This document shows positions 2,528 through 63,379 of a stretch of DNA of 64,000 nucleotides, piece by piece; the first letter of the stretch is position 1, and each line of letters begins with the position of its first letter. The notes beneath the pieces were generated by a model. It was not told where the DNA came from. It did not search any database and worked only from the letters and a program-made list of their open reading frames with translations. The DNA lies in assembly GCA_031213475.1 (NCBI GenBank), contig JARUPZ010000025.1, positions 4,505,980 through 4,569,979 on the forward strand. Reading direction: 5' to 3'. The position numbers and the translations under genes are program-made. Origin of the DNA: Nereocystis luetkeana (Eukaryota; Sar; Phaeophyceae; Laminariales; Laminariaceae).

Positions 2528-4404
2528 AAGGCAGTCTTACACACCAGTCATTTAGCCTCTAATAGTATGACAGGTACCTGGTATGTCTTTTGTGTTCATT
2601 TTGCAGGAACAAAATAAGGACGAAGATAGACTTCACAGCTTCAGCGCCATGTAAAAAGGATGTGCTGCAACACGTAGTCCGAATGTGTGGGATATTATAT
2701 ATCGATATATATATATGTCCATCCTTGGAAAAACCTGTTTTTGAACATACATACCTACCGAAAACTGTTTTGAAAGAATGCCACGAAAAACTGTGAGCAA
2801 CATGTATGTAGAAAGACCAGGAAGCAAAATGATTTTCAACTCGTCGCCTCGTTCAAAATGCACTACTACTACCGTCCGGGGGGGTTTTGAGGGGCTTCTT
2901 ATTTTTGCAATCGGCAGTAAGTACCCTCATCATCTACTCTGCTACTACTGTTGTACTGCACAACAATGTACTGCTGTAGTGTATCTGTGTCGTAGGTAGT
3001 TTCGTCGCCCCAGGGCTTGTACCTCGCTCCACACATAATAAATGAACGAGACGAAACTCCCACACATTGTGAGATGAAATCAATGTATGTGCTAAACTAT
3101 ACCTGGTACTTAACATGGCCGCGGATTCAAGAATCGGCACGGACGCTGTTTGCGCCAGATGTCGACCGGTAAGAAGAACGGTTTAATAATAGATAGTGTG
3201 AATGAACTACCCAAGACAGCAGCAGTGTCGCACAAAAAGAAAGGGCTTCTTGGTACAGTTCCCCTGCGTGTCTTCCATTACTTTTAAGGTTGCCATCCGA
3301 CAATTTGCAGCATGAGCTTCGACGTTGATCACTCAAAACATTCCTGAAAGAAGAAATCCCCGGAAACAAGGGACACTTACTAACTGTATGCACAATGTCT
3401 ATCTACATTGTACGTCTGCTTCCCTCTGCCTTGTCTACGATTTTTTATGTGTTGCCGTTGGTCCCTTCTACCTCATCTCATTTTTAAGCCGCATCTATTA
3501 AGCCGCATCTAAGCTCCATCCCCACTCCACCGGTGTGGGTCTGTCATTCCCACATACATGTCAAAACTCATGTCGGTCGAAAATCTTGTTTTTTTTCTAT
3601 CTAAAGAACTTAGTGCTATTATTATTAGTAGTAGACCTTTAGTCAGCGTTGTGTTGTTGCGTTCTCGCCCGTACTCATCAGTCATCGCCGAAAATACCTG
3701 GTTGTCACAAGACAGGCGCCTGCCAACTCTGAAGTGGGAGAATGCAAAAGGAAATTATGAAAACGAAACCCGATGATAATAAATAAGAAGGCCCCAAGTA
3801 GTAATTCGTACCAGGTACTCATATAAATACCTATACGAGTACAGTCCAGGAACTGGAGCGGATCGTAAACCTTCGCGAAAAAAACATAACAAGAGTAAAA
3901 TCGGTCAGAAGTAGGGAGTGAAAAGAGAGAGGTAGGGAAGGACAACAGTACGTGCCAGAGATCAGCCGGATTGACTGCGCACAAACGAGTGCGGAGTCTC
4001 TCCTGACCTCAATTGCACTCCTTAGTTTGATGGTTCACCCGATGGTCAGACATACAGGTATACACCATTCCATCATATTTCTTATATGGCCGTAAGCGAA
4101 ACGGTCGCATGCGCCCCCGGTCACGCGAACAACACCATGTTCCCCAAGACTCGGCTGTTTGTACACCTTCCGTCATTCATTGCGTCAGTCAGGGTATTGT
4201 GCACGCCGATACCACGAGCTATGCGTCATTCGTCCGCTATTATGAGTGTCGACAATGCTTCTCACGAGAAGCAAGCGCGCACACTCACATGCAAGCCTTG
4301 ATGACCGAACCAGTGCGTGCACCTCGTGCGTACCTCGTCCACGTTTCTGATCGTATGATAGCATCAAACAAGGGCTTCCGGTCAGGACGACATCAATTTT
4401 CCGG

Positions 4405-4497
4405 ATGAAGGGGTCCATCGCCATTGCCGCCCTACTAGGCGTTTCGCCTGCGGTTTACGGTCAGCAGACGGACGAAGCTAACGATCGCTTTGACTCG
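4405..4497 (+). CDS. Gene 1 exon 1: signal peptide and short pro-region
   Basis: Encodes 31 residues starting MKGSIAIAALLGVSPAVYG, with a basic residue, then a hydrophobic stretch, then small residues before Gln-Gln. This is a typical secretory signal with likely cleavage near residues 18-20. The exon ends in phase 0 at a GTGAG donor. It is 45 codons shorter than exon 1 of gene 2, which has an extra pro-region. Confidence 0.88.
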
Positions 4498-7400
4498 GTG
4501 AGAGGCGAAACAGGCAGCGAGCGTTATTAGTATTTCAAGGGGGTACGAGTAGGTGGTTGTGGTTTTGGGGGTTCTCCGAGGCGTATACTTCGTATCCTTG
4601 TGTAATTCCCTATTAAGAGTGAACGGGCTTCTATTTACACAGGACCAGCTGAAACCATTGGTGTAGTTCGCGTCATTCGCGCACTACCTCACGTACGTAC
4701 GTACGTATGCCCACTGCAAGACCTGCATATGTTCCGCTCTACCGAGTACTTCTTCCGTTGTTCTCCAAGAAGACTCGTTTTATCTAGCTTCGCTGCGCTC
4801 CTCAAGAGAAGCTGTCGATGACGGCCTTACTTCGCCGGTCGCTGACGCCGCCTCCCAACGCGCCAAGCAGTCGGGCATAGAACCGGTCGCGGCGTAAAGC
4901 TGCAATTTAGGTAAAAATAGTGACGTGCTCTTAAAAAAAATAATCCTGCTGTACGTACGTACGGCTGCTGTTTGTTGGTATGTTTAGATGGATGTGTCTC
5001 GTGATATAATGCCGTCTGTTCTCTTCCGTCTCAATTCGCGGCTCACAGCCGAAAGAGAGGGCGTTCAACGTGCTTGGCCACCGGAGGGACTGGTCTAACA
5101 TCTCATTCCGAGGGGCGACGAACGCCTACCACAGCAAGCTTGACGACTCTTCCTCTGCCGCTACCTTCCACAAGACTCTCCCGCACGACGAACTGGGGCA
5201 GGTGCGTAAGTAAGAGCGGGCAGTATGTGTACCACCACCCCAGGGTCCGATTAATACCTCCGGACACGAATCATAACATTAGGCACTGAATTTGCCCCTC
5301 GTGTGTACGTCCCCTGTACGTCTAGCTTTCCACACCACCCCCTGTTGTATCGGCCACCGCCTGTTGTATCGTATCGTATCATATCATACGTATTCTCCGT
5401 CTTGAAACTAGTGCGCAAGGGGCCCAAAACTATTCCACCCGCTCGTGGGCGCGGCTTTCGCCTCCTCAGTAGGTTTGCGGCAAATCTAAGCGATTGCTTG
5501 TACTTTTTGTATTTATTTGGCACCGTGAACAAAGCAGTTAGTTGCCCCCACTTGGTGGGGCTGTTGGTCGTGAGCATTTCACGACTTGCCACCCAAAGTC
5601 AGGCGAGCGAGTGACTAATAGAACTTGGAACGGCAGAGGGAACCCCGCTGGCGGCGTCTCCCGAAGAAGCGATGAAGGCGCCGCCAGAGGCGAATCAGGC
5701 GTTTTGTTGAACATAAGAAAAACGCAAAAAAATGTACTTGAAAAAAATCGTTTCACTCCATGTCCCAACCCAACGAAGAGCAAACGACTACATACAGCAA
5801 CATACCAGGTACTTCCAAACAAGGGCAAACGACTACAGACGGCAACCTGCCAGGCACTTACTTGAGAAAAATTCCTAAACGGTAGGTACTCAACTAAGCA
5901 GTTTTAGACCAAGGCCTCGTCGAGGATTGTGTCAGCTTTTTTCCAGTCGCACTGATACCTGATGGAGATTCGAGCGAACCGGGAAACTCGTGACCAAGCT
6001 ACGTCGTCAGCGGTGGGTCGAAAAATCTCAAGAAGAAGATAACGTCTTGGATCCATCCGTAATATTATTTGTTGAGCAGTGTCGCCCCCAACCTTGCGTA
6101 AAACGTGCGCATCGATAACAGCGGCAAGCAGTAAAGTATATTACTACCTACCGGTAATTGGTACCTGGTACCTGGTATGTTTATTTATGACTTCGGCTAG
6201 CAGACTGACAGCTGCAGGAGTGTCCTGCGTGTGGCAAAGCTCGTGGTTGTCTATGGGTGCCTAGCTCGCTGCTACTGTGTTTCCCCACAGCCGTTCGGTG
6301 TTAGATGTCACCATAGATTCAGATACTCGACTTGAGGCACACAGGAAGTACAAAGCTAGCGAATGCCAGGTAACGCGTGCGAAAATACCCAGATTGTCGA
6401 AGGAACGAATGCATATATATGCAACGGACTTTCCTCCCTCAGCGTTGACACCTATCACAAGTGCGCCAGAGCTGACGCTGTCGGAAACGTCGAGGGAGAT
6501 TCGTTGTTCCGCCATTTGTGCGCGTGTGCATGTGGATCTCCCGCCGCACGCTGGTGTGTCACAGGGCACTGAGGTGTCCACAACACCCGCACTAAATAGG
6601 TTTTCAAACCCTGCATCCCGTTTACTCAACACCTTCCTACCATAAGGGAAACCCAATACGTCGGAAAGCCGGCACCTACGTTCCCCGACAGACGGTCTGT
6701 CCGACTTGTAACTAATACTATTAAGAGTCGGCGACTTACGTCGCCACGACTCACAGCCCTGTATTTTGGTGGTCGTGGCTTGAACACGGATATGTACCAT
6801 GTATAGATGTGTTCCGAAAACTTTCTCTCTACACTCGTTCAGGTCTCGAGTCTTGCCGAAGGGCCACACGGGGAGTAGGGATTCGTTTTTCTCCCAGGTT
6901 GTTGATTCCTTCTGTCGTTTCACCGTTTTCGTGCCAGGTGGACGCCGAGGCCTACACCGCCCTATTGGAGTGCGTCGGTGAAGGCTCCATCGACAAGTGC
7001 GAGTCCGTGCCCGCCGGAGACCCTGCTGGCTTCCTGATTCAACCCGTTGGAGGCATCGCCGTCGAAAGCACCGGACCCGCCAGGCAAGGAATTATTATCC
7101 CATCGACGTCGACCGCCCTCTGGTTGTTCCTTGTTAAAACGATCGGTGGGGTTATTTCTGCCAGGGGAATATGAGCACGAAGCCCCCGACCGCTCTCGGA
7201 GACGGTCCTGCCTTGCCCGAAGCCCTCGTGCGTAGAAACATGGGAACATTGGGACTCCAGTCGTTGTGCGGTGGCCAAAACGGAAAGGAAGTTCGCCTGG
7301 CGTGTGTCGTATTTTTGCCCTTCACGTGTGTACGCTACTACTGCATCTTGCAGCAGCAAAGACCTACACCCCCCGTGGCACGCGTGGTCGAACTGCTGTC

Positions 7401-7828
7401 TCCAAGGTCGGAACGATTCGACGGGATTCGAGGAGAAAAGAAAATATCGCACAGCTTCGGTACATTATCTTTCATCGTCGTGGATAATATTTGAGTGATA
7501 CAACGTTAAAGCTCCTGCTGCACAAAAATCGGATGGCAAGCACAGTAATCATAGAAATAACAACAACGATAAATATAAATATACCAGGTAGTAACAAAAA
7601 AAACAAAACGTCAGACATTATAAAACCCGTACGGAGAGGAGGCTGTTTTTTTTTACTGTGCTCTACCCCCGTATCTGGCGCCACAAACCAAACTTTGAAA
7701 CGACGTTTTATGCAGCTTGCAAAGTTGAGTGTCAACTATTATATACAACGTATAACCTTAATCAGTCGAACTGACAGCCCAGATATTTATCAAAATTTGA
7801 TAAGACGTGTATATAAATCAATCAACGA

Positions 7829-7882
<54 letters not shown>

Positions 7883-10800
7883 CCATCCCATTCATTATCT
7901 TCGCACATCTTCTTCTCTCTCTCCTTCCAACTCGTAACTCAGATCCGGGGTCACATAGCAGGCTCTTCTCCCCCCTTCCCGCTACGGTACGTGCCTTCAT
8001 TTTTATCGCGAGAAGATTTCAGCCTTTTCTTCCCTCGTCGACTCGCATCGAATTGTGCCTACCCACGCTGCAAGGCGCTCTCAACAATTGAATCCTTTTT
8101 TTTTTTTTTTTTTTGCAAATAAAGTCAAAGTCCGACCCTCCTAGGGCTCGAACCCAGGACTCAAACAAGTAGAATTCGAGGTTAACCACTTGAACCACCG
8201 GGGCGAGCTACTATTAATAGTACATACCTGTATAATAGTCTGGATAACAAGTGTGAAAATATACAGGAAAACGTTGTTATATCACTGACAGGGTAAGACG
8301 TATCGCTCGTAGACCTCGGAACGCGCATGCAAGGAAGGATGTCACACCTCTCAAAGTCGTGCATGAAAGATTCCACCGGACTAGATATCGGGTTTTTTTA
8401 GGTCCGCAACGTGGACTGCGTTGACCTCACTACGAGGACCTCCAGAACCGACCCGATCAGGTAAGGTAGGTCCTTGTGGCCCTCTGCGGTGTTTCTCTAA
8501 AAACCTTAACCCTCTTACCGAATACGAGAACGAACTCTGCTCGGCTTTCGTGGGCCGCATATACCGCTACAAGGAACCTCGCTTCGCGACCTCTCCACGG
8601 CGACTTCTCCGCGGCATCATCGGCTCTCACTGCGAGCATCGTCTGTACAGGAGCTACACATTTTATTATTTGATCATGTCTGCAGCAGCAGATCTAACCG
8701 TATGTATTCGAGTGTGTTTCAGAAGTATTTACAAATAATGCAAGTCTTGCGTCTCCTTGGCGTTTACCGGTGGCTCTTTATTAGGGGTTTGGGTCGGAAA
8801 TCCGCCTTCGGAAACGGGCGCGGGTTGCCAGACTCCAGTTCGTTTGTTGTGGGGTAGGAAACTGACGTAGGCTCGCTGGATGACTATTTACAGACGTTAT
8901 CTTGCCGGCAATTGTAGCCCATATATATTCGAAGTCACTACAAACCACGAACGTGTACTGGTATATATATATATCGCTGTCCTTGTGAAATTCTCGCCGC
9001 CCCGTCCGGCCAATGCCCTGCTTCATCGCTGTCATCCCCATGTCCTTGCTTCCCCGTCCGGAATTCTTTGACCCCTTGGCTCCGTCGCTCCTCGCTTATA
9101 TTCACCGATCCCCCTGCCTTTCTTTGCGTATCGCCGGTCCTTTCGCGTGTATTGCTCCCACGTGCAACCGGTGAATATATATGCCGTTTCGTCAAATTGG
9201 TGATATCTTCCTGGCCTGTTTTTTCATGGCTCCCCTCTACGTGCTGGTGGTTTCAACCACAGCTCGGCTCTGGTCATCCCCCCCGCGGCGGCGCTCAACT
9301 CCATGGAACTGGTGCGTCCTGGCGGCTTACAACATTTCTATATGTATATTACATGATATAACGGGGTACGGTGGGTTTGAGTTATCTATGATTGTGCGGT
9401 TTTGTCAAACTGTGTTGGAAAGGGTGTTTGGTTCTTCAAGTTGCCCGCCACCGAGCTCCGGTTGTTTCCCGCAGAAACCAGAAATGAACGTGTGGTGAGC
9501 TTAAGCTATGTTTTTACCAGTCCATCGGAGGATACATTTTAGTTTAATATCATCGTCTACTGTAAGGCCCATCCGTTTCCTTCTCTCCTCTCCCTACCCT
9601 ACGAACGAGCTCAGGCTGCTAACATGGCGGAGGCGTACTGGATGTCCTTGACGAGGGACGTGCCTTTCTCCAAGTACGGCGTGGACGAGACGACGATCGC
9701 CGCATCAGGTATAGACAAATCAGTCTTACGTTTGTTCTGGGGTCGTGTGCAGCGTAGTATTCAGCTTTCCAATTCGTGTAGGAGTAGTCTTTCCTTTCCT
9801 TCCGCCCATTCAACGGGCCTTTGGATGGCCGATGCCTACGCAAGCATCTTGATTCATCACGTCATGCTCACCCCCGTGCCCGGCACTACCGTGCCACGAC
9901 CACAGAAAACTTGGCCGCCATGCCGGGTTTTGCGAAGATGAAGGGTGTCGCCGTCGATTCGGAAGGCAAGGCCGACCCACAGACTCAGCTCTTCCGGAAC
10001 AACGCAGTCGGTGCTGAGACGGGGCCATTGATCTCCCAGGTGCAGCATGGCCTCCCGCCAATTGTTTCATGGAATAATCGGGTGCTCTATTTCGCTCGCT
10101 CGGAGGCAAACATGGAGTTCGTCTCGCAGCTGTCGCCCATCGTCGTCGCTAGGCGTGCCCCAGATCCGATCCCGTAGTCCGTGATGTCTTCGCAAGCGCT
10201 AGTACCCCTGGTATATTATATTCTACTCCAAAGGCGGGAACCGAAGCCAAAGTTGGTTCGGCACCTGCGTATCGTGCCACTGCCGGTACTGGTCGTTGGA
10301 AACCCACGCTCATGCTCCGACATTCTTTTTTCGCAATCCTGCCGTTTTTTTGTTCTGAGCTCACAATGTTTTTAGATATATTCTTTGCGGTGGTAACCCC
10401 CCCCCCCCCCCGTCATACGACTACGGCCATGCATGAGATCGAGTACATCCGTCCTTATCGAGTACACCCGCCCCCCCCCCCTCCCCGACGCCGGCGTCCA
10501 TTCCGCGCAAAACTCAGTTTTTGTTGAAGGACTTTACTCTGGATTCCATCACAGTTACGCCTTTGCAAACTACCTTCGCCCCTGGAGTCGACTACATGAC
10601 CGACTACGACGAGTGGCTGAACATTCAGGTATAATGCAAAGGATATTGGAAGTTTCGTGTCTAAGCGAGAAACCGTTCATCCGTGACGATTTTTGCGAGC
10701 AACGGACAAAACCTGTGAACCCGGCAAAAAGCGAAACGAATTGGTCGATGACGAGCACTAAGTCTGGCTGTGGAAATCGTCGGAGGGGCGGCCGCTCGCT

Positions 10801-13800
10801 GCTCGTTTGTTCGCGCTGCGGAGATCTGTTGCAATATTATCGGTGTGCTTAGGATTTGTCTCCTGGACTTGCTCTCCTCTCTCTCCCTCCGTTGTATTTC
10901 CCATCACACAGAATGGCGCAGATCCTTCCATGCCAGCGCAGGTTGACCCGGTCAAGCGGTACGTCCGCAACTCCCGCGACCTTTCCAGGCTGGTCGAAAG
11001 CGACACCATCTTCACGTAAGAGTCGTGCGATGGACAATTTCAGGAGATAATTCACGGCATGTTCCTGAATCTATACCCGCACTGGTACCCGTTCACCTAT
11101 ATTTAGAGTGTACCCGGGTCACTTCCAACGTATCTAGATGATCGGCTCCGGCTGCATGGTCACACGTTCTCGCCGTCCCACGGGCAGCCGTCAGATCAAA
11201 CTGATTTAGCAAAATGAGCGTTGATCTCCCGCGTTTGCATCGCTGCACACGCGGCTGTGACCTATAAGCAGCCGTTCACCCGTGCTTTTTCAGGCGCGCC
11301 TAGTTTCTATGCCACCACTCACTGCTGTCGGATGTTTTTGCGTTTGTCTTAACTTTTCTTGGTGAACTTTGAGTTCATCGGCGTGACACCCCGGACAGCA
11401 CGGTATGTCGCTTGTGGTGTACGGCCCTTCACGCGTACCCATGTTAACAATCTTCATTAATCGGTTACTATACTGCTGTAGGTTATACAATTTTTGAGCA
11501 GATCCGTGACTTGCGGTGCACGCGTGAAACACCTTTTGCAGGGAGGCGTTCCGGGCCTCCTTGATCCTTTTCCAACAGGTGGCTATTGACAAGAGGGGTT
11601 TCAACGGCCCCTACGCCGACAGCACCCGCCAGAAGGGGTTCGTTAGCTACGGTGTGTCTCACGTCATGAGGATTCTCGGGAGCGCCGAGGTGGCCCAGAG
11701 GTCATCGTGGTACCAGAAGTGGAACGTGCACATGTACGCTCGCCCGGAGGTGAGGTTCCACTCCCTAGCCAAGCCATGGGTGAATCAAGCCGAATCGTAG
11801 GCGCTTGTGCAGGATCGGCCGAACCCCTCCCGGCCGATGGCGCGTTTTTATCGCTATCCGAGCGTGTGGCGAGCTTGACGAAACAATATATGGGCGCGTT
11901 TTCCACTATTCTGCTGAACCCCCCCACCCCCCCCCCCTCTCCATCCCGTTGGTTGTTCGTAACCTCTTCCACGGGACAGGCCGTTGCCGGAACCATCCAC
12001 AATGTCCTACTCGGCAAGCTCGACACCGAGTTCCACCCGTCTCTTATTGAGAACACCGAATTGCTTGACAGGGTGGCGGCGAGGAATGCCGAGATGAACG
12101 CGAATGGCGAGCGCACCCACATGCTTTCCCAGGTGGGTACAACTACACGGCAGTGTGCAGCGTGCGGCTTGCGAGCGCCTGCGGCTTGCGAGCGCCTACG
12201 GAGGCGGCGCGCAGTAAAAGTATCCCTCGTACCAGATACGACTATTCGGTGAATGGAGGAGTTTATCGCGTCTCCTGCAAAGCATTCCGCGCACCGCTAT
12301 TAAATAGTTGTGTTAAAAACGCGCGTGCGACTCGGTCACATCTCGACTGTTCACGGATTGTGCCGAGAGGAGGATGGCTCACGCGGAATGGTGACGACGG
12401 TTCGAAAAACCTCCTGCTGCACGAGCTTCTAACGGCGTTTCCCACAACCACGTCGTATTTGTCGTTTTGCTGCGATTTCTACCTGAAAGGCGTCAAACAA
12501 CGGATCGCCAGGGCACCCCTCCTACCCCGCTGGACACGCCGTCCAAAACGGGGCCTTCGCAACGGTCCTCAAGGTGACGTTTGCCGTCGGTGTCACTCGC
12601 GCCACCGTCACTTTGACCTATAGATAGGTTGGTCGAACTGGCAGTTCCCCCTTGTTCATTTGGGCAGGAGGGTAGGGCAACGGGTAGAACGCAAGCCAAT
12701 TCATGCCGAGCGCGTGTGTCCCGCGTGGCTCCACGCTACCCGATGCCCATTGGTATTTCGTGAACCGGGCACAATTTTGCCTAGGCGTTCAACACGTTCT
12801 GAAACCCATGCAATGCCCGACTGTCAGGCCGACTCGTAGACGACCTTCCCACGCCGTTCTTTTATTCTCAGATTTGCCAATGGGCTCAATAATCCCGAGG
12901 CATTGACAAGAGCCCTGGGGTACTTCGCCTTGTCTATCCAGCGTCCACGCGCACCTTCTTGATACGGTGCCCCGCATACCGCAGTTGGCGCATATATGCC
13001 CTGACACAGTTTACTGGACCCGCAGCTAACAATCGCGAAACAACCGACGTATGCGCAGGCTCTTGTCGGACTGGAGAGAAGCACTGACTGCTTCAGCGAC
13101 CCCGTGTTCCCAGACGACGAAGGGCTAACCCTTCTGCCCTACGATGGCTGCCTCACGTTCGAGGGAGAACTGAACAAGATGGCCGGTAACATCGCGCTCG
13201 GCAGGTTAGTGCAGAAATAACATCTGCGTGGGGTTCGTTTAGGCCACAGCGATCGAACTTCCTTGTCCGGGTAGCACGTCACCGCGTTCAAAGGACGGGG
13301 GGGGGGGGGGGGGTAGAGTTGGTGTTTGGATGCACCCAACTAGGAGAGCTCTTCAGGTATATTTGTACTCTGGAATTCCAAGAACTAAGATGGTCACTCG
13401 GCGGAGTGGCTCTCTGCGACTGAAAACGTGGGTAATTTAAGAGCGACCTCCCCTACGGTAGCAGCAGGCACAGGCGAGTGCTGTGGCAGAGACCGTTCCT
13501 GATTCATTCCGAAGCTCATCAAGCCGGTAACCCTCTCTATATCTCGCCCAGAGTTTCACAAACAACTAGTACAGATTGAATAGCGTAAAAAACCATTGGA
13601 TTTCTGTCTGCATTCGGGTTGTTGTCGCCCCGCTGCGTCAGAGCAGCAGGAAACATCTACTCCGGGCGACCTTACCTGGTACCTGGTAGTAAACAGGATC
13701 AAATATTGTTGGTGAAAATATTGAATTGTACAGATTTTTGTGCCACCGTAGGTCCTCACGATAGAAAGGGTCGCCGGTCACCGCCGACAGGCTTCTACCG

Positions 13801-18480: not shown

Positions 18481-20373
18481 GGTTGTGGAAATTGTTGATG
18501 TATGGAAGGATTCCAAATGCGGCGATTGGACAATGCCCGTCCCAGGTGCAGCAGACCATCGACGTATGCCGAGATGGAACTCACGCGGCGGCCCTACGGC
18601 GCCCCAACACGTAGCCGACGGCGACTGCGGGAGCCACCCTGTCCAATGGAAGGGGGCTCGGAGTTCGCTCTGTTGAACATTCAGCGTTTGGCTGTTTTAC
18701 TCTATGAGAAGCCCCAATCTCGGCGCTCATTCGGTTTCCACGTATGTATGGGTCGCGTGGAGTGGACCGTCTATAGTGTCTTTCTCCTTCACTAGAAGTG
18801 GGGTTCGCCCGTCGTTTTCAACCTGAACAATTGGAGGTTGGGCTCTGGAACTTACGTAAACGGTCCCGTGTCGCAAATGAATACCGCGTGAACGACCGCT
18901 GTATTTGGCGCTGCACCAGGGGGTAGGAGGAGGGGTACTATTACCGCATACGCGCCCCTCGGCGTTATCGGATTGCGAATTGGGCCACTCTGCTGTGTAA
19001 ACTGGTGCTACCGTAAACGGGGGGGGAGGGGGAGGGGGGGTTGGTTCTCAGGTCGTTTGTTTTCAGCATCTCAGAGTCAAGCAATCAGCCGAGTGACTGT
19101 CAATTTTCTCTTCTGTAAGCCGCCAGGAACTGTCCATCAATCTGTGATAACAACAAGTGTATTTGTTGTCCAAGTATGTGCGAGGTTCGGAGCTACTCTC
19201 CCGAGTGGCGTAAACGGAGGGGCGGGCATATTGGCATCACGCTCCGCTATCCGCAGCACCAGTCCGGTACGAACTGCTCTCGACGTACGCCGGCCGTCAA
19301 ACCGATGCGGTATGTTGCTGCAACCCGGAAACTTGACGGCCCCGGAAGCATCTACCGCAGTGTTTCAACCGGCCTCGACACCTCTTGAAGACTTCCGCTC
19401 AAGGGCCACTGATATAAAAAAGTAAGCGTAAAGTTGCGTCGCCCTTTTCACAACGACACGAGATGGTTAAACGCGCGCGAGATGAGAATGAGACCTGACG
19501 CCTCCACCGTGGTGTCTCTATCAGCTCGTCCAATAGCAAGCAGATCGACGTCAGGCCCCACTTCCTGCGCGAGTGTGTTAAGAGAGAAAGGTTTGTCGGT
19601 TTTTCATAGTGCATGCAGACATCTTCACGACGGCTGTCGCCTACAACCGGATTGTTTCGAAACACTGTGGCAACCGGGTTGTTTCGAAGCGCTGTGGTGT
19701 TTTCGCTGTTAGCGTATGATCATTTGGCTCTTCGTGATGCGCGGTAGGCGTTGGTACTATCAAGTCTTGTTTACTGGTCCGACATCATGAGGGGTACTGA
19801 AGTTAATTTATCCTCTCGCCGAAGTTCTTAGCACAAGGTTACGGTTATAAGTTGTTTCGCGCAGTTAAAACTGCAGGGATTGATGTCTCGTGGACGCACC
19901 TGCAGATAATATCATTGGTATGGCCCCATAAAGAACATGTTTTATTGTATTTAGCTACGAGTTGCTGTTGCGGTAATGTGGGACGTTCACCCACATGCTC
20001 CTTCCTTGTTTCCCCCTGCAATCGTCGACCTCGTTTGTGACCGACATCATATGGGATGTATCAAGCTAACGTCTTCACACTGTGCATTGCAGTACCTAGC
20101 TCACAGCCTAGTGCTGTTGCAGGAGTCCTCAATCCCTTGCTTATCAGCATTCAGTTTGACTGTCCCCCCCCCCAGCCAAGTTTTTTTCCCCCCGTTGTTT
20201 GCGTCAAAACCAACAAGTGTCGACGCCATTCTGGGCCTGCTAATATTTGTTCTACGAGTAGCGCAAGAAGAGTGGTTAACCAAACCTACCCTCCTCCTAG
20301 TCGACGATCGATCTCCATTCCTTCCTCGAGGCCATTTTCAGCTTAGAGACGCGGTGAGGGCTTTCTCTATCTA

Positions 20374-20490
20374 TTACGGGGGACCATATCGAATAGGACT
20401 TACGGTACACACAAACAACTACCTGGTACCAGGTATATAGTTGCTATTTTAACTACTAAAATTTAGTCCTATTTACTATGGTCCCCCGTA
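20374..20490 (-). mobile_element. Family A MITE, copy 2, with internal footprint insertion
   Basis: Inverted ends TTACGGGGGACCATA and GGTCCCCCGTA. Relative to other copies, the interior has a 14-bp insertion reading CCTGGTACCAGGTA placed at a TA (20420-20435), which makes two tandem footprint units. Confidence 0.85.
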
Positions 20491-22936: not shown

Positions 22937-23116
22937 GCCCCAGTTACGCTTACTCATACATACCAGGTACGAAGTACCTGGTATGTGGTGAACGGCCTGC
23001 CATGCCCCCATTACGCTAGCTCGTACATACCGGGTACGAAGTATGTGGTGAATGGCCTGCCATGCCCCAATTACGCTTACTCATACATACCAGATACAAA
23101 GTATGTAGTGACTGGC
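22937..23116. repeat. Three-unit tandem repeat showing a filled/empty 7-bp insertion site
   Basis: Units start at 22937, 23004 and 23064 with GCCCC, then TTACGCTTACTCATACATAC. Unit 1 is 67 bp and unit 2 is 60 bp. The 7-bp difference is exactly the extra CCTGGTA in unit 1: GAAGTACCTGGTATGTGG against GAAGTATGTGG in unit 2 and AAAGTATGTAG in unit 3. Confidence 0.9.
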
Positions 23117-25243: not shown

Positions 25244-28200
25244 TTAACAAAGATGGGCGCCCATGAACAAGTCCTCCTCGCATTTGTAGTTGTCGACGTA
25301 AGAGGACCCGTCGGGCTCGAGCCTGATCGTTTGCCCTGACATGAGGCGGAACTCGTACGGCTCGTTCTCCGGGAAGGCTACCACCTCCTACAAAAAACGA
25401 AAAACGTAGGGGACGAAGAAGGGTGGCGATAGAAACGAAGCAGCAAGCACGGGGGTCGTTGCTGCAGGGTCAAAACGTTTGCCCGGCTCGACGGGTGACC
25501 AACCGGTTTGCATTGTTAGTGGAGAGTGGCATTTGCGCACGACACGCTTTGATACTGGACCAAACGTCAGCCAGGCCAAACATTTGTAGGAGTTTTTCGT
25601 GGGCGGTGTGCCCCGAGTTCGTTGTCATGGTGGTCCAATTGAAGCGTGTGCGTATGTTCTCTCGCCTGCTGCAGCATCCGTACGCCGACGATCTCGCCCA
25701 GGAGCAGTCCTTCCTCGCTGTCCATCCTGTAGTGGACGCCGCACATTTGCCTGCAAGGTGAAGCAGCACGGGTGCGCGACGGGTGGCAAAGGTTGTGCGC
25801 AGCTCATAACCTGCTGCTTGACTATTACGGGGGACCATAGTTAATAGGACCAAATATTGTTAGTAAAAATGGTTAAATATATAGGTTTTTATGTATACCA
25901 TAGGTCCTATTAACTATGGTCCCCCGTAATAGAGAGTGGAGAGGAGACGCGGTTTCTTCGATAGAGATGGCGCATTTCCGCTGAAACTATTTCTTGATGA
26001 CGGGGTTCCTTCACCCAAAATCATCGGATTACCAATCTCGCTTCGAAAGATGACGTTTTCGTAAAATTTGCACATGGGATTATTCATCGAGACGCAATTT
26101 GATTTTTGCTGGAGTGAGGTTTCGGGTGAGGTATGGAACTCCCTCCTTAAGGGAGGAGCTTCAGAAAACATAGGGCGAACCTCTATCGTAGTACGCCCCA
26201 GGAGATAGACACACATTCTTCACCCGAAAGGCCGACCTCAGGCCTCGAGGGAAGAGAGGGGTCGACGACAGTTTTCAGTCTTCAATCCTGCCCAAAGAGA
26301 TAGAAACCCTTCTGTTCGGTTACACACAATGCTGCTCATTTCCTCTGTATACTTGCTACGGAAAAGAGGGTACGACGCTCTGAGACTGTACACTTCGCGG
26401 TAGACGGAGTCTTCTCAACTTGCGTAGTGGTACTGCCGTGCGTCTTGATTAGTGCCTGTTTGGGTTTTCCCATCGAGGCGCGTTTTGTTTAGTTCAGGCA
26501 GGTAGGTGACCGCGGGGTAAGTTTAAGGGAGATGAGCTCATCATTATTCCCATCCTCATCATCATCGTCATCCTCATCGTCGGCATGATCATCGCCCCCA
26601 TCATCCAATCAGGACGTTCCCAGAGTGGCGTGGCAGCCCTATGTAGTTGTATTACGGTGCTTGGCAATTGTGTGTCGTAGTTTGCCTATTACGAGGGAGC
26701 ATGGGAATCAGAACGCACGGCGCGATGGACCCGAAACCGAAGTGTCCTCCAATGTATTCGCACACCGTGTTTTGGCCGTGACTACTACAATATGCCCTCC
26801 GCCCGCATCAGCATCTGTTGATTACCAGGTAACACTAGGACTGCTCCTTGGGTGACAGATACAGCGCTGTCTCGATCGGCAGAGCGCACAGGTCGCCGAG
26901 ACACCCCCCCGCGCATACCCCAGGCTCGGAAGAGGCGTTCTACAAGAGAAGCTCACTCTAAATTTTCTGAGGTCCCTCACTTAAGGAGCTCCATACCTCA
27001 CCCGAACGGACTTCAGCAAAACTCAAATTGCATCTCGATGAAAAATCCCATGACCTCAATCAAGTACACAAATAAACGTTTTTTCCCCGAAACAAGATTG
27101 ACATTCCGACGAATTTGGGATAAGGGCAAACGTTATTCAGAACACGTTTTAGCGCAAATGTGCTACCCTCTATCGTAGAACGCATCGGTAACCAACTGCT
27201 TGGTGAAGACATTGAACAATGGATCAAAACGCCTCAAAGTGTCGACCACCTCTCGATTTCGTTACACCCATCTGCTTATTGTGCTTAAGTTGGGGTGCCC
27301 CAACGTTTTTCTGGGGGGGGGGCTCGGTTAAGGGTAAAAACACATTTTTACTTCGAGAAGGAACAACAAATCGCAAAGACACGGTAGACTGGGGACACAG
27401 CGGAGGACACGCGAAAAAAACGCAAGCTAGATGGGTTTTAACCCTTTTACGACGGCATTCCCGTTTCGGGGACAACCCATTCAACCTCACTCTGAGTAGT
27501 CTGTCCCCACAACGGAAGTGGCGTCCCAAAAGGGTTGAACGGTCGGTACCGGTGAAGTAGAAACTTATCGGTTTAAGGAATATGGAGCCCAGATAGCATC
27601 CTAAACGGTTTCGTCGAAATACGACACCCTTACAGTATATATCAAAGAATGGGTTATGCAGCTATTTGTACTAGGAAACAGGCAGGTCACTACCAGTAAC
27701 GACTGGGGCTACGGATCTAGGGTATGGGGGGGGGGGGGAGCGGGGGTTCGGTTCAGACGCGTTTCGCGATGATAGAGGTGTGTGCATAGGACATTTTGGT
27801 GAAATAATGTATGAGTGGTGGCGGGGGGGGCTTTTCCACTGGGAAGGAACCACCCAAGATTTTCTGCCTCAACTAAACTATACATTGTAGCGACCTACGA
27901 GTACTAGGCCATCGGAAAAAAAGACAAGACCAAGCATTTGGTAAAGCGCGCAATTGGGTCTATATCCCCTTTAGTACTGCAGTCCCAACTTGGGGACAAA
28001 AGCATTCTAAGTCCGAGTGGTTTGTCCCCAAAACGGGACCGCAGTACTGAACTGGTTTATAGCGGGTGTTCCCGTGATGCGGTACGCAGAGCTCCCCAAG
28101 TCCGAGAGGGGCCTCGGAAAAACCGCAGGGCCACCCGCCCCCTACCATTGGGCCCCTCCTCTCGGAGGCACTCGGCTGCGTGTGGCCACCTCAATTAGTC

Positions 28201-31200
28201 GGCCTCTTCATTCAGGTTTTATTTTTACGTGGGTTTCGGGATAGACTACTCCTCCCTTGTGGGGGTTGTTGCCCTGCGCTGCTGCCCCTACATAATAAGA
28301 CGAAATCAAGCAAAGTTGCGAGCGAGGTTCACAGAGTCACCCACTTAGGGGGGGGGGGGGGGGGGGGGGGGGGCACATCACGCGGAGAATAACACCTCTG
28401 TGGGCGTAAGCATGAGAAGACGAAGCGGCCCTTCCTTACATTTCCGGCCAGAACGGGATGGCGGTACCCTCCCTCCCCCCCTCCCCCCCCCCCCCCCCCC
28501 CCTTACCTCATGGCAATTTGTCTTTGTGCAGTAGATATTTAGCACGGGTGGGAGGTCGTGACTCTTGTATTACGCTGCATTGCACAGAAACCTAACTATG
28601 ACTCTAATTTCAGGTGTTACGGGGAGGGGACTCTATTAAATAGGACCTACGGTAGTTCGCTATTATTACCAAACATATGCGGTCCTATTTATTATGGTCC
28701 CCCGTAATATTGTGGTATGTCCCTAAAACGGGAGGGTGCAGTCCCAACAGGTTAATGGGACGCATCTACGTGTACCAGGTAGCGGTTACTATCGCCTTTA
28801 CTCCAGGGAAAATGTACCTGCCGAACGCGACGTTGACGGCCAATTTGTTGATCTCTCCCTCGTACGTAAGGCACTCGTCGCTGGTGTAGGGCAAGAGGGA
28901 CAGCCCGTCATCGGCGGGGTAGACGGGGTCGTTGAAGCAGTCAGAGCCACGCTCCAGTCCGACAAGAGCCTGATATTAGGTGGGGAGAGACGGAAGCGGC
29001 GGCGGTGAGCGTGCTACGATCGACACGGGTATCTCTTGCGCTAGATTGTGTCGTGAGTGTCCCCCAAGTTTAGACTGCATCGACGTACCCCCAGTTCTGC
29101 GACTCGAGCTGAGATTGATGCCTGCCTTATCCGGCTCCGGTTCCGGGCCACGGTATAGGCATTACCCACCCTACTCCCAGTTCCGTAACTCAACCCGGAG
29201 CTGATACCACCATTTCCCTCATCCTGCCGAGGCAAAGGTGTGGGCATGACCGCCGTGTTCTCGGAACCCGAAACTATTTGCGGGGTGAGCGGTGAACGAA
29301 CGGTAGACGGCACAGCAGTGACTCACCTTGAGCACGGTCGCGAAGGCGCCGTTCTGGACGGCGTGGCCAGCGGGGTAAGACGGGTGGGATGGCGATCCTT
29401 CCTTGACTGCCTGTGACGGGGGAAGCACAAGCGACAACAAGATAGAGCATCAAAGCGGTGTTGCGCTGACTTACACCAAGATGCGTTTGCCTCGGGGATC
29501 GGTAGACGCCCTACACGAAGTAGTTCACCCCCCCCCTACCCCCCCCCCACCCCATTGTGTCCTACGTCCGGAGCAAACATCTCGAGACTGCAAGTATGAT
29601 AGCGGGTGTATGACCTGGCATGAGAGGGCGGGTCTAGTACTTGATGAATCAGATAAAATATTGGTTTCTTCCAACAAAACAATACACCTGCTTTGCAGCT
29701 AACAACCCAAGGTACATGTCGGTTACGGCTGGCAGCTACACAAGTATACACCGTGCACTACTCCAAACCTCATGTTCAAGCCGTCCATTCTTCGGTTGCG
29801 GGAGAAGGACCCGGAGCGCAACTTTCCCACTTGGGGTGGGTGCTACAGCTACCTACGTGGTCGGCTTAGTGGGATGGGTAGAAGGCGCATCCCTTATTCA
29901 TTTGAGCTAGAGATATACAGTAGATGAACGTTTTACCCCACATTACGATACTTCCAACGCAGCAGTCATGATCAGGGGCCAGTGAGCTGATTTTCAGACT
30001 TCGTGCTGAGGTAGGGCTTCATGGTATCTAAATTTTTTGAGAAATTTCTGAGGGTCTTCACAGCAGTCAAGGAGGCATATCCCTCCCACCCAAACACTGA
30101 CCCCCTTGACAATACGACGAACGGGCAGCCCGACCAGTATTCCTACGGCCCACGCATTATAAAGCGTAGGGTTGTACACATATGGCACGCCCTATTATCG
30201 CCAGTTACAAATATGCATGGCTTACTACCGCCTATTACAAATATGGCATGCCTTATTACCGCCTACTCATAGGTCATACCTCAGTTCATTATGAAACGTT
30301 TAGACTCGTTTACGAAACATTGCACCACCCTCTATCATACGCAGCACGCGCTTATTTTTGTTTTTGGTTCACCATCGACAGAAGATAGGTTCGCGACTCG
30401 TCCGCGTTCATCTCCGCGTTGTGCGTCGCCACCCTCTCCAGCAAAGCTTCGTTGTCGATAAGCGACGTGTCAAACTCCACGTCGAGGTTGCCGTACTTGA
30501 CGTTGTGGATGGTGCCTGCGATGGCCTATCACGCGTCGAACGATTTCGCGACACGCGACACAATGCGTGGGTGGGGGGATCAAACCAACGAACACATTAA
30601 AGGGAGGGGGGGGGGGGGGGGTGCAACCGATATCATGATTGACCGTGATCGTAGGATGGATATAGACGATCACAACCTTACAACGCCGGGACGAAGCACG
30701 TCGGGGGTTTTACCGACCAGGCAGACGTTTCTTGCGCCAAGCGCGAAGTACCGTGAGGTGTCCCACGAGTCGCGTGAAAGATGAGCTGCAACCTACCAAG
30801 GACCGCTTGTGAGGCGACGATTTGCTCATATGGACAGTCCCTTCAGCCCCAAAGAAACGCTGAGAGAAAACATTACCCCTGTCGTACAAGCCCTCGGATG
30901 GAGGCGTTCTACGATAGGGGTTAACCCTAAATTTTTTGGGGCTCCCCGCTTGAGTGGAGCTCCTTATTCCACCCGTAGCCTGACTTCAGCAAACATTAAA
31001 CAACATCTCGATGAGTAATCCCATGGACCAGGCAATACGAAGACGTCGTTTTTCGAAGCGAACGAGGCGTTCCGCCGAGTTTGGATTATGGAACCTCGTC
31101 ATTCAGAAAAAAACATCGCGGAACCGTGCTACCTTTATCGTGGAACGCGGCGATACACTCGTAGTGCGGGTTGCCGCTATGGTGCCGGTATGTGCCTGCC

Positions 31201-44186: not shown

Positions 44187-44702
44187 TAGTGAAGGCGATA
44201 TTTTTGAAAACAAAACAAAATAATGCTGAAAATTATTGCCAAGCACCTCTGCCTATCACATAACATACATACATACATACATACGGCGGTCTCGCATTCA
44301 TCGAGGGATGTTTACGTCGCACGGTCTACAGTCCCAAAACACCGCACGCGCGTCGGTCATCGAGTAGTAGTATTGCATTTATTTCAAGACAGCGATTGAT
44401 TGATACCTGGTATCATACAGTAGTACGTGTGCTCAAGTCCGAGGCTCGCTCGTCCTATCTATTATACAGGAATCAGACCCAGAAAAAGCGGCGTGGTACG
44501 CAAGAAGAGGGCGAAAATTCGGGAACCCTTAGATTTCCCTCCTTTGTATGTAGGAGATAGATGCAATCAGGAAACAAGCGTGACAAAATAAGCCCAAAAA
44601 AAGGGGAACCGAACAGGAAAATCTTGACATTCGGGCCACAATTAATTGTTGCGAGGTAAATAAAAGCCGTATCGAAATCTCCTCTCCTTTGCGCGTTCTG
44701 CT

Positions 44703-50934: not shown

Positions 50935-51303
50935 GAGGCGTTCTACGGTGGTGGTAGAGGTTCACCCTAAATTTTCTGAGCTACTTACTCACTTGAAGAG
51001 CTCCATACCTCACCCGAAAACTGACTTCAGGCAAAAAAACAAATTGCAGCCCGATGTATAATCCCACGGCCCAAATATACAAAAAACGTTTTTTTTTTCG
51101 AAACAGGAATAATAGCATTCCGAATATTTTAGGTTGAGGAGCCCCGTCATTTATCCCCTTTAGAACCGCAGTCCCATTTTGGGGACAAACCAGTCAAATT
51201 TCAAGTAGTTTGTCCCCAAAACGGGACTGCGGTTCTAAAGGGGTTTAAGAAAGATTTTAGCTGAAATGTTGATACCTCTATTATTATCGTAGCATGCGTC
51301 GAG
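50935..51303 (+). mobile_element. Family D MITE, copy 4, carrying a nested family B MITE
   Basis: Starts GAGGCGTTCTACGGTGGTGG and ends ATTATCGTAGCATGCGTC. Interior CTCCATACCTCACCCGAAAA and CCCGATGTATAATCCCACGG match the family. A full family B element interrupts it at 51152-51246, so B inserted later. Confidence 0.82.
51152..51246. mobile_element. Family B MITE, copy 8, nested in family D
   Basis: ATCCCCTTTAGAACCGCAGT pairs with ACTGCGGTTCTAAAGGGGTT, a nearly perfect palindrome. Among the best preserved copies in the window. Confidence 0.9.
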
Positions 51304-52761: not shown

Positions 52762-53094
52762 TAGTAACTCGCTGAGGTCTTCCCATAGTACCTGGTAGGT
52801 ACTATGCCAGTCTAGAGCTTGGTCTGGCCTGTCTGTCCTGTCGCCGTGGACCAGAGTTTTTTCGTCGATCACTCAATGTGCGAACAACCAACAACAAAGA
52901 TGGGCGCGCGTCATCAAGTCACGTCGTGGTCTAGTTTAAATATATATATGCCCGCTACACCGGCGAGGTTACGTGAGATATAAGACGCAAGACAGTATTA
53001 ATAACAACAATAATACAAGTAAGTATTAATAGTCCCTTCTGGGTGTGAATCTTGGAGCGGGTTTCCCTCAATAATTCAATCAAAGACGCTTCCT

Positions 53095-53350
53095 ACGATA
53101 GAGGAGGCATGTTTCCGCTAAATAAAATGATTCTGAAATGACGGGGCTCCTTGACCCCAATATAGGGTTTCAAAAAATGGCGTTTTTGTATACCTGGTAC
53201 CAGTACTTATTACGAGGCCATGGGATTATTCATCGGGATGCGAGTTGATGTTTGCTGAAGTCAGTTTTCGGGTGAGGTGTGGAGCTCCTCAAGTGAAGAA
53301 GGGCCTCTGAAAAATTAGGATGAGCATTCGTCTCTGTCGTAGAACGCCTC
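53095..53350 (-). mobile_element. Family D MITE, copy 6, with a footprint insertion
   Basis: Starts GACGCTTCCTACGATAGAGG and ends TCTGTCGTAGAACGCCTC. At 53191 the family sequence GTATA is followed by CCTGGTACCAGTA, absent from other D copies, for example GTATACTTGGGCC at 51435-51447. Confidence 0.85.
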
Positions 53351-54713: not shown

Positions 54714-55790
54714 GGGGATGCTGGCACGCTCAGGAATGCGTCGTTAACTACCCGCGCGTAGGTGTTCCGGCAACATTTACATACGGCTTGGAATTAGAGG
54801 AAGGGATTTGCAACCAAGATCCGTATTTATTTCGGGGTTTTAGAATGGTTGACGCAATTATACGAGAATCCTGAGTTTTTTAGCCCATTTTTGCACGTTT
54901 TTGGGCCGAATAACTTACTACCCATCATGGGATGGTGGTTTTGCGCCAGCCAGCACCTTCGGCGACGACTGCCTAACAGCCACATCAGCCTGGAGAGCAG
55001 CAACCTTCTAGTGAAAGTCGATTCTTCATCGGTGACGTGGTCAGTGTGCTATGCTCCCTCGCGTGAAATAAAATGAAGCATTTTAGCGTTTGTTTGGGCG
55101 AGTTTTTTGCGCTGCTCGGTCGCGACGTCGGACTCACGAAAACACCTTTCGAGTCGTCTCTCGCTTCCTACAATTAATTGCGGCCTGGCGCACCCGACGC
55201 CCTCGCAGATCAATTTCCTGTGAAGAGTTGCAGCCGTCCGCAAGTGAAGTTCGAACGTTCAGTTAGTTGAGGGTTGTTGTCTCTTTTTTTTTTGCACCCC
55301 AAATTTCGGCCAATTTCGACCACTACTGGAGCACCTCTCGGTCGAGGTGTAGGGGTCTCCGTCGAAAACCTGCGGGGGATCAATCAAGAGAGAAATACAA
55401 GCTGCGGTGTGATGAACCTCTAGCAAGTCGCCGTCGCTATCCGGTGAGTACGGGCCAGCCTACCAGGTACGTTCTAAACGCAGCTAGATAAGATAGCGAT
55501 GTTTTGTTTTATTATGTTCCGATGAAACATCTAGGGATTATTAGAGAGACCGGAAACCCGGGAACCAGGGGACGCTTGGGTGCCACAGCATCCCCTAAAG
55601 CAAGTTTCTACATCCGTTTGTGGACGAAATACTGATAGTATCGAGATCCTTGAAGTGAGAAGGCAAACAAGGCGCCGTCTCTACCGTGGCACGCTTCACT
55701 GGGGGGGGGGGGGGGGGGGTCACGGCTTTTAGTAGCCTCGTCAGACGCGGGTTACGGCAGGCGTAGGGTAGTACTTTTCGGCTAAGACAA
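54714..55790. other. Non-coding stretch, nothing recognised
   Basis: Short open frames only, none recognisable. Contains one TACCAGGTA 9-mer at 55461 and a G tract near 55700-55719. Confidence 0.4.
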
Positions 55791-56319: not shown

Positions 56320-57710
56320 GCACCTCTTATGGAGTGTGCGTCCCCGTTAGCCAGAAACGGTATTTGATAAAACGGTGTACCTATGTATCACCATCTGGAC
56401 GCACAGTTCCCTGGACACAGTTGCCTGGACACAGTTGTCTGCGTTGCACAATGGAGGCGAAAGAGGAAAAGTTGTACCAGAATTGCATTCAGCACTGTAG
56501 CAGCAAACCCCACAACAAGGTGTCGTCGACAAGGGCTCAATTCGGCATGCCAAAGACGCGCTACGTTGTTCTTCAATCTCTCCTCCGTGATTGGTCAACG
56601 CGCACACTGAAAAAAATAAAATGTGGAGTGGGGCGGGGCGGGGGGGGAGGAGCAACCTGTGCCGTTGATCACCTACCAGGTACATACTAATCTGCCGTGC
56701 TACGAGATGTGGTTGTGCAGGATCTGTACGTTACACACCCGGCCCAAAGCAACACATCCTGGAACAAGCCGGTTTTACGGCTCTCTCCCGCTACCGAAAA
56801 GGAATGAATGTTCATGTCCTATTCCCTGAAAAAGACTTAGCGGGTAGATCGTAGAAAGTGGAAATAGAGCACCTATCCTCGATGTGCGGAGACAGTCGAC
56901 CCCCGGACCCCTTGCTCGAATACACCTTGAGACGTTGACGCATTTGTCGTCACGAAACGTCAAGAGGGCATGAACAAACATTCGTGCACGTATACCTAGC
57001 ACTGCGGGGCAACCAAATACTTGCGCACACAACGTCGACGCGTTGCTTGAAAATGCGAAAGCATGACGAGGTCGAAGATTACCCAAGAGGGAGGAGAGAG
57101 AGCAGCGCGCTTGCGAGCAACACCTCCGAGGCCCACATGGTGGGCGTCCACGCCTAGCGTTGCTGCCCGTAAAACGTCTGCACGGTGGTACCCAGCAGCG
57201 ACTTGGAGGCAGGGAGACGGCGGTGTACTTTAACGTGCATGCCGACGACGCCATGGCGCACGTCCATACCAAGCGTTGCTCCCATGACTCCTCCCCACAT
57301 TTCAAGCTGTGTATCCTCGTTCGAATTTTATGCGAGCGTCAACACACGTGTGTCATGTTTACATTCCAATTATTTTTTCACAGGCCTAAGCGTAGAAAAA
57401 AGCCGTTTGGGAACCCCCCCCCGGGGGATACCGACTATAACAATGATTATACCCATAGTTGTATCAACCGTTCTACGAGCAGCGTGAGGGCCCGGAAATT
57501 TGGGTGGATGATCCTGCTTCGCCCGCCCCGTATGAGCCCGTTTCGTTCATAAACCCGGACGCCAACTTCCAATCACGCCCCAGTTCAACCACGAAATGGC
57601 CGTCGCTGCACAATCGTCACTTTCAACGATCAACGTTTATTTCCCTTCTGAAGTAAAAAAAGGGTCAAGCGCGCGTTATTGTGTTCCTGTTTCTGTTATT
57701 TCTTCCACAC

Positions 57711-57811: not shown

Positions 57812-58535
57812 GTCAACGCCGTCTTTGTTTTTTTTCGGGGGGGGGTGAGGTACATACAAGATATGCTCATAAGTGAGGACCCGCCAGAAAACGAAGCAGC
57901 GGGTGCAGTCCCCTACCGTAGCATGCGTGCTACGGTGCGGCTACTCTCTGGCTCCTCTCGCCTGAGGTACTGGAGGAGCTCCATACCCCCCCCAAGAGTC
58001 CTACGTACCTGGTAGTTTTATATGGTAGGTTACTTGTCTCTGGGTCTCACGAATGGGTTACTCCCACTACTACCGTTCTCCTCGGCCTGCCTGGGTGCTG
58101 CCTGACTCAATATATATGCACGGCACAAATGGACTAAACCGGGTGATACTTCCTCGGTGGCGGGCGCCCGTCGATCCCAGTGACATTTTGGGTAAAAAAT
58201 ACGCGACCTCAAGGCCGTACACGTCGCACGATTCCGGTAGCATGCGTCGAAGAAGCCGTCTGACTTAAAGTATTTTCCGAGGCCTGCTCGCTATCAAGAG
58301 GCCGCCACACGCCTTACCCGCAAAAAAAAACAAAACTGATCTTCGACTAAACTGCTGTTGTAGGGGCTTAAATTCCCGATACCCGGGCGAATGGGATCCC
58401 ATGGCCTACGTAGTAGGGGGTAGTATAGGACGAAACACAGTGCGCATCGTCACATGCGGGACTTATCTCAAGCCCTACGGTAGTAGGCCCTCGATTGAGG
58501 ACCGCGCCATCAGTCTGAAGTGCCGCAAAGGGCGC

Positions 58536-62367: not shown

Positions 62368-62400
<33 letters not shown>
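62368..62400. repeat. Poly(C) tract, 33 bases
   Basis: Uninterrupted C run after GGAGCA. The two flanking copies of TACTGC/ACCGCACTGTAG with GGCATGAC suggest a local duplication upstream. Confidence 0.93.
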
Positions 62401-62872: not shown

Positions 62873-62875
<3 letters not shown>

Positions 62876-62907
<32 letters not shown>

Positions 62908-63030
62908 ACTCGATAGGAGAGATGTACTCGATCTCATGCATGGCCGTGGTCGTATGACCATAGACCCTCGCATCCCTACAATGCCGGGACGGAGCATGTC
63001 GGGTTTTCACCGACCAGGCAGACATTTTGA
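62876..63030 (-). repeat. Family E repeat with poly(G)/(C) end, copy 8
   Basis: A G tract (62876-62906), then TACTCGATAGGAGAGATGTA, CATGGCCGTGGTCGTATGAC and ATGCCGGGACGGAGCATGTC. It agrees with copy 6 over most of its length. Confidence 0.85.
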
Positions 63031-63268
63031 GGAAGCGCCGAAGAAAAACTTAGCGGCATGCCTCGTTGGGCAAGTGTTCAAACATCGCAGGGCAGACCTC
63101 CTGTCTCGGTGGTCGGGTGTGTTTTTTCCGCAACGTCCGGTTGTTAACCTCTTTGATCAGGTTTCCCGATTTCGAAAGCTGTGTCAGCTCCGACAGCTGC
63201 ATGTTTTTTTTCACCGCGCCACCGATTCCCGCTTCTTGGTATTTGTATCTTCCAAGGCATATACAGTA

Positions 63269-63379
63269 TCACGGGGGACCAAATATTGTTATAAATACCT
63301 GGTAGTAGAAATGGTTAACTATACACCTTGGTAGGTTTTTATGTATACGACAGGTCCTATTCACTATGGTCCCCCGTAA
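63269..63379 (+). mobile_element. Family A MITE, copy 16, with footprint insertion
   Basis: Left end TCACGGGGGACC has lost the ATAGTTAATAGG segment. At 63295 the consensus TTGTTAGTAGAAATGG is interrupted by an insertion that contains TACCTGGTA. A second, imperfect CCTTGGTA lies at 63326. Confidence 0.82.

Follow-up and report, generated by a model that had tools for sequence, protein, structure and literature searches.

The question raised by this locus is what has left a nine-letter word, TACCWGGTA, scattered along it in many exact copies. The locus is a stretch of 64,000 nucleotides from the brown alga Nereocystis luetkeana (contig JARUPZ010000025.1 of assembly GCA_031213475.1, positions 4,505,980 to 4,569,979; G000:C25:4505980-4569979), which was analysed as a whole and is called the window below. 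It is argued here that TACCWGGTA is very probably a footprint left on excision by a cut-and-paste DNA transposon with TA as its target. In total, 22 exact copies were found in the window against 0.50 expected, a number reached by none of 100 dinucleotide shuffles, while each one-mismatch neighbour of the word is present only 0 to 2 times. The first-pass annotation of the window had listed the same 22 copies (two coordinates were off by one, 26824 for 26823 and 63295 for 63296), had put the chance expectation at about 0.5 and had noticed doublets sharing a TA. All of this was confirmed, with three such doublets in the window (6162/6169, 13673/13680 and 20420/20427).

The genome-wide count that the annotation had proposed as a check lies far above its control. 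In the whole genome (465 Mb, 1,987 contigs), TACCWGGTA occurs 182,395 times, or about once per 2.55 kb, compared with 1,744 occurrences of the same word read backwards, which served as the genome-wide control word. For closer inspection, a 282-kb sample was composed of the window together with 20 10-kb stretches picked blind to the word and six 3-kb loci (18 kb) that had been fetched because they hold TACCWGGTA; loci L005 and L006 were left out because of their overlap with L004, and L007 and L008 overlap mutually. The sample harbors 110 copies at 102 sites, with 8 doublets, and the 20 word-blind stretches contribute 77 copies in 200 kb. When 100 sampled sites with 60 bp on each side were compared, 83 had no similar flank at any other non-neighbouring sampled site (E 1e-3), and the remaining 17 had mostly MITE (miniature inverted-repeat transposable element) or AT-rich flanks. 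Therefore, most of the scars look like separate events.

Comparison of paralogous copies by BLAST revealed what is gained at such sites. At window position 22975, an exact 7-bp gain, TA to TA-CCWGG-TA, is seen against the sister unit at 23003-23117, and the gain is likewise exact at L026:7056 when compared with a MITE copy at 25823..25934 of the window. This reference copy (no strand assigned) is flanked by TA, has the ends TTACGGGGGACC and carries an empty TA that is filled in L026 and at 20420, where a doublet of the same MITE family amounts to a gain of 14 bp. Thus, the 7-bp gain described in the annotation was reproduced exactly at two places and in doubled form at a third. The difference is 8 bp at L012:3808, and the further matches of the same empty-site comparison were not clean. 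Insertion at TA with duplication of the TA follows from the comparison of empty TA with TA-CCWGG-TA, that is, it is read off scars and not off an intact copy.

One TA of this dispersed MITE, located with the word CAYAAAAACC-TA, was found scarred 1,942 times and empty 7,520 times in the genome, with 0 in the controls; since the empty count additionally requires TATATTT on the right, the two counts set unlike demands on that side and are not a tally of events. Non-canonical forms at the MITE site number 194 for CCWGGV, 57 for CCWGGTB and 230 for CCWH, and 70 of these copies (20, 40 and 10, respectively) were read. In 68 of the 70, MITE sequence resumes behind what is a doublet, a subfamily difference or a scar in variant or decayed form, and no trapped element was recognised in any of those read. 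Of the other two, L035 is a chance match to the MITE word with no MITE present, and L096 (G000:C9:10867141-10867230), which is ambiguous, shows no recognisable MITE beyond CCW in the 78 bases read and could be either a rearranged MITE copy or an insertion. Among 100 oriented MITE-site scars listed, 65 are of the A form and 35 of the T form (counted by eye), which remains puzzling.

The product sites in the 282-kb sample are CCWGG (110), CCSGG (12), CCAGGG (8), CCAGGGG (3), CCATGG (2) and CCAAGG (2). With the window and word-blind stretches only, the spectrum is nearly unchanged (99 W, 12 S, 8 AG/CT and 3 AGG/CCT). The scar is therefore a short palindrome centred on W (110 sites against 12 with S), as a footprint with an A/A centre should be. 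In the same sample, CCGG was found 13 times (control word, 8), TACCATA was at control level (46 vs. 50), TACCAGTA reached 29 vs. 18 in the control, and TACCTGTA 15 vs. 4 in the reversed control. Among 100 listed of the 194 CCWGGV copies at the MITE site, 85 CCAGGG and 3 CCTGGG were counted by eye; ten CCAGGG copies that were read comprise seven CCAGGG-TA, one CCAGGGG-TA and two decayed forms. Because of this bias towards A, simple slippage at G is disfavoured, as slippage should affect both forms.

The annotation had proposed a Tc1/mariner-like element with CCA ends, whose two 3-nt overhangs meet at a central A/A mismatch. In an enumeration of joints, a CCA overhang leads to TACCATA, CCAG, CCWGG or CCATGG, with zero paired bases in each, and two of the products this geometry predicts are at control level (TACCATA) or scarce (CCATGG, 2 vs. 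110 CCWGG). With a CCAGG overhang, CCWGG is joined by four pairs, CCAGGG or CCCTGG by two and CCAGGGG by none, so that the order of the main products is predicted. The 3-nt CCA geometry is thus not supported, while cut-and-paste at TA and a central W derived from A/A are retained, being supported by the empty sites, the target preference and two parallels in the same genome. If a transposon is accepted, a 5-nt stagger is probably the better choice. We infer the transposon itself, its CCAGG ends, its 5-nt stagger and its low-copy or lost status from sequence.

Such an element would insert at TA and duplicate it. At excision, its transposase would nick one strand at the tip of the element and the other strand about 5 bases inside, so that each flank would end in a 3' overhang CCAGG. 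The overhangs would pair (C:G, C:G, A.A, G:C, G:C) and be ligated, and repair of the A/A mismatch to A or T would yield TA-CCAGG-TA or TA-CCTGG-TA, respectively, whereas pairing slipped by one or two bases would yield the minor scars CCAGGG and CCAGGGG. The palindromic scar implies that the putative source had matching ends.

With the scars closed up, the 102 TA sites share a symmetrical context, W(-7)A(-6)..A(-3)T(-2)R(-1)TA, and such a palindromic target preference of the emptied sites is as expected of a transposase. Compared with other TA, the p values are 1.8e-14 for W(-7), 2.0e-13 for A(-6), 4.8e-4 for A(-3), 1.2e-4 for T(-2) and 1.3e-8 for R(-1), all of them optimistic since both orientations were pooled. 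A TA stands at -7 of 26% of the scar sites vs. 7.5%, in some cases apparently as the remnant of a neighbouring scar that has decayed. The scars are clustered at distances below 50 bp (10 pairs vs. a mean of 2.6 and a maximum of 9 in 1,000 draws of random TA) and more weakly at 300 bp (20 pairs vs. 12.3, maximum 25). One-mismatch variants of TACCWGGTA occupy 119 sites, against 40 in the reversed controls and 110 exact copies, and several of the largest variant classes are transitions. The scars thus span from fresh to decayed, and this suggests long activity, not a single burst.

Two further TA-palindromes are over-represented in this genome. The word TATTAATA occurs 93,112 times (control, 10,689), including window positions 8212, 44980, 48033, 52996, 53024, 60721 and 62773. 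An abundant TA-flanked MITE has the ends TTACGGGGGACC, and 38 of its sampled ends are preceded by T(-3)A(-2)C(-1) at frequencies of 0.55, 0.66 and 0.66, close to the 0.63, 0.60 and 0.49 found for the same bases at TATTAATA scars. With this common target preference, the most fitting reading of TATTAATA is that of a scar left by excision of the TTACGGGG MITE. The word TACWGTA occurs 162,074 times (control, 54,742), with 13 copies in the window, and is the scar expected of TA-flanked pogo-type elements that end in CAGT. Elements of this type with a DDE_1 domain and ends TA-CAGTGGGG are represented by L029 38-2061, by a single end in L031 and by a 212-bp relative at L016:8695. Another DDE_1 element (L110:575-2552; 1,978 bp) has the ends TA-CAGTACCGGCCCGC, and its inverted repeat (TACAGTACCGGCCCGC...) spans about 27 bp. 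Genome-wide, 200 ends of its CAGTACCGG family were found within one mismatch, 97 of them exact, vs. 3 for the reversed control, which points to some 100 to 200 copies. The rule that an over-represented TA-palindrome is an excision scar thus fits identified element ends twice in one genome, and it is for this reason, together with the 7-bp gain and the target preference, that TACCWGGTA is read as an excision footprint as well. A scan of viral contigs for the MITE with the scarred TA gave 0 matches. Copies of another MITE-like family of about 95 bp (TTAACCCCTTTAGAACCGCAGTCCCG...) were observed at 2432-2526, 44702-44796 and 51151-51245 of the window, among other places.

The source element was sought in several ways. 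A search of the 282 kb for terminal inverted repeats (TIRs) of the form TACC...GGTA (up to 8 kb apart, at least 13 of 20 positions matching) returned 38 pairs and no recognisable CCW-ended element; the pairs starting with CCWGG were dismissed as scars paired by chance. The best 90 boundaries of a repeat-boundary search belong mainly to TTACGGGG and TTAACCCCTTT MITEs and a few other repeats, and none of them starts with TA-CCWGG. The genome has 28 DDE_1 matches, and at the 8 examined for TIRs no TA-CCAGG..CCTGG-TA pair surrounds the domain. Transposase_1 (PF01359) gave 0 matches, its control being positive nowhere. Elements with CCA...TGG ends and TA flanks, a search for which had been proposed in the annotation, were recognised neither among the sample TIRs, nor at repeat boundaries, the MITE site (with L096 ambiguous) or the 8 DDE_1 loci. 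The pair at L030 678-2518 (TACCAAGTAC) was not taken for an element, since it is overrun by open frames resembling the ones downstream in L029; by a rough estimate, pairs of this kind are not rare either. In three places (L107:1013-1049, L031:1194-1223 and L007:2208, the same as in L008), two CCWGG units separated by a filler lie between TAs within 29-37 bp, which may be filler scars or chance.

Several observations weigh against the excision of a transposon with CCAGG ends. No CCAGG- or CCA-ended element was recognised in any of the above searches, and DDE_3 has 0 matches in the genome (controls positive in 3 of 14 genomes). The products CCSGG (12), CCATGG (2), CCAAGG (2) and TACCTGTA (15 vs. 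4) lie outside the predictions for a CCAGG overhang, and inheritance of scars by MITE copies inflates the scar count at the MITE site. Moreover, 3 of 13 pogo-type ends (L031:1222, the left end at L110:575, and L117) abut CCWGG, for which we have no explanation, against a background of about 1% of TA preceded by CCWGG. On the other hand, a source present at 100-200 copies per genome would be expected only 0.06-0.12 times in 282 kb, and it is therefore unsurprising that one of similar copy number should go unseen in the sample. If the scars were left by a transposon, the source element is rare, extinct or nearly all excised.

The adjoining CCWGG units invite the explanation that the source is not missing at all, and that pogo-type (DDE_1) relatives make CCWGG scars, either as a by-product of integration or excision or because some of them end in CCAGG. 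The inverted repeat of L110 can indeed be extended outward as far as TACCAGGTACAG.. and TACCATATACAG.., with 14 of 16 positions matching; it then takes in CCAGG at one end but CCATA at the opposite end, which remains a puzzle. However, these elements carry CAGT ends beside TA and differ in their outer flanks, and so predict TACWGTA, which is enriched; only 2 of 200 TACWGTA words (both strands) directly follow CCWGG. The comparison is post hoc and small, the 13 ends belong to two families or more, and in L031 the sequence is TTCCAGG, not the full 9-mer. Two further TACAGTGGG words (L022 and L036), unproven as element ends, have no adjoining CCWGG. We consider a pogo-type origin unlikely.

Slightly less probable still is that no transposon was involved and that an enzyme cuts TA, with repair inserting CCWGG directly as a 7-bp micro-insertion. 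The great number of scars and the lack of a recognised intact element would agree with it, but two parallel scars in the genome match real TA-flanked elements, a symmetrical target preference together with a mismatch-resolved palindrome is what transposase excision produces, and the absence of the element can be explained by low copy number, as in the CAGTACCGG family. The exactness and symmetry of the 9-mer might also indicate a protein-binding or recombination site under selection; since unrelated TAs, within MITEs and within a tandem repeat, acquired the word by a 7-bp gain, and since it decays into one-mismatch forms (119 vs. 40 control sites, beside 110 exact), such a functional palindrome is very improbable. 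Equally hard to credit is a spread chiefly within other repeats instead of by separate excisions. Up to about one fifth of the word-bearing MITE copies are scarred at one TA, an overestimate since the empty count demands TATATTT, yet 83 of 100 sites have no common flank (compared within the sample only), and the MITE site bears A and T forms plus many variants on varied MITE backgrounds. Excision from TA therefore remains the preferred origin of the word.

In Sleeping Beauty, a Tc1/mariner element, the choice of A or T in the footprint comes from an A/A mismatch. Its footprints read TACAGTA or TACTGTA (PMC4378557) and correspond to its 3' overhangs, which are 3 nt long for both Sleeping Beauty and mariner (PMC7827188). 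The scar TAC(A/T)GTA is like TACCWGGTA in its TA target, its equality with the overhang and its two forms, and unlike it in that the overhang here would be CCAGG, of 5 nt, that the element is unseen and that exact scars exceed 10^5 in one natural genome. The Mos1 mariner begins with 5'-CCAGGTG... and cuts with a 3-nt stagger. The TA target and the CCAGG start are thus shared, but its stagger would leave TACCATA or TATGGTA, which is not enriched here. Within the same genome, the TTACGGGGGACC MITE resembles the proposed element in its TA target and in a palindromic scar, TATTAATA, matching its own insertion preference; it differs in having many resident copies and in the target TAC-TA-GTA, not WA..ATR-TA. 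The pogo-type DDE_1 elements with ends CAGTGGGG and CAGTACCGG are TA-flanked, of low copy number and the likely source of TACWGTA, and end in CAG, whereas the TACCWGGTA source would end in CCAGG.

PIF/Harbinger elements duplicate a 3-bp TWA target and were ruled out, as T is depleted directly before TA (0.07 vs. 0.19) and the gain repeats the 2-bp TA only. Insertion at TA with its duplication and a short palindromic footprint centred on A/A agree with the IS630-Tc1-mariner-pogo superfamily, whose members also carry TIRs and a DDE/DDD transposase gene. The superfamily makes staggered cuts of 2 to 4 nt, whereas the product spectrum here would favour 5 nt. The piggyBac elements, which target TTAA and excise without a scar (PMC7351741), were also ruled out, the target here being TA in varied contexts with a scar left. 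In Ectocarpus, 17 Mariner-Tc1 families are described, most copies being non-autonomous (PMC12477816); these are brown-algal TA-type DNA transposons, as proposed here. The word "footprint" is absent from the main text of that study, and the portion consulted mentions no CCWGG scar. Literature matches listed for the 9-mer string concern other subjects, and the titles and abstract openings searched describe no algal or genome-wide excision footprints of such kind. An excision scar is a known kind of product; what sets this one apart is its extreme amount and the unusual stagger it would require, with no source in hand.

The window footprints, to which no strand is assigned, include exact matches at 2575..2583, 3100..3108, 3809..3817, 5803..5811, 7582..7590, 26823..26831, 28773..28781, 44404..44412, 52789..52797, 55461..55469, 56674..56682, 58006..58014 and 53191..53199; next to the last stands CCAGTA, which may be what is left of a second unit after decay. 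The doublet at 6162..6177 consists of two footprints with a common TA; that at 13673..13688 lies in a MITE relative (family D17), other copies of which read ACCATAGTTAATAGG at about that place when compared by eye, and that at 20420..20435 in a MITE copy (20371-20496) whose relatives have a bare TA. The footprint at 22961..22969 lies within a 60-bp tandem repeat and is probably older than the tandem duplication, because the sister unit has TACCGGGTA; that at 22975..22983 is the one with an empty TA in its sister unit. The footprint at 63296..63304 is inside a MITE copy, and the BLAST gap there is not cleanly placed.

On its two strands, the window also contains three open frames similar to vanadium bromoperoxidase (9788-10174, 11528-11797 and 31322-31828), with the best match to 1qi9, the Ascophyllum enzyme (E-values, 1.6e-23, 1.4e-23 and 1.9e-8), which by itself would make a brown alga the most likely source. 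The annotation held that no footprint lies in an exon; none of the 22 falls into these three frames, the only ones compared. A 229-bp inverted duplication (11529-11757 and 31362-31590) is found within the frames, and a near-perfect 89-bp tandem repeat of four copies at 45014-45369. Pfam scans of 10 window open frames detected 0 families, and Rfam and tRNA scans gave 0 matches.

A wider picture, plausible though short of probable, is that a lineage of TA transposons with a 5-nt CCAGG stagger went through several hundred thousand cycles of insertion and excision during a long period in a single germ line, either at tens of copies or fewer or with complete removal, as in the programmed excision of ciliates. 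What DNA transposition leaves in this genome would then be mainly scars, not copies, with several families acting in parallel. Annotation of repeats by resident copies overlooks jumps that leave no copy behind, whereas each scar would document an insertion and an excision at a TA of known position and, by its decay, would serve as a rough clock. Thus, a single assembly would yield the lifetime number of transpositions, the target preference, the outcome of end joining and their change over time. If this is true, the scars would be a large source of 7-bp insertions in the alga, causing frameshifts in exons and offering useful strain markers.

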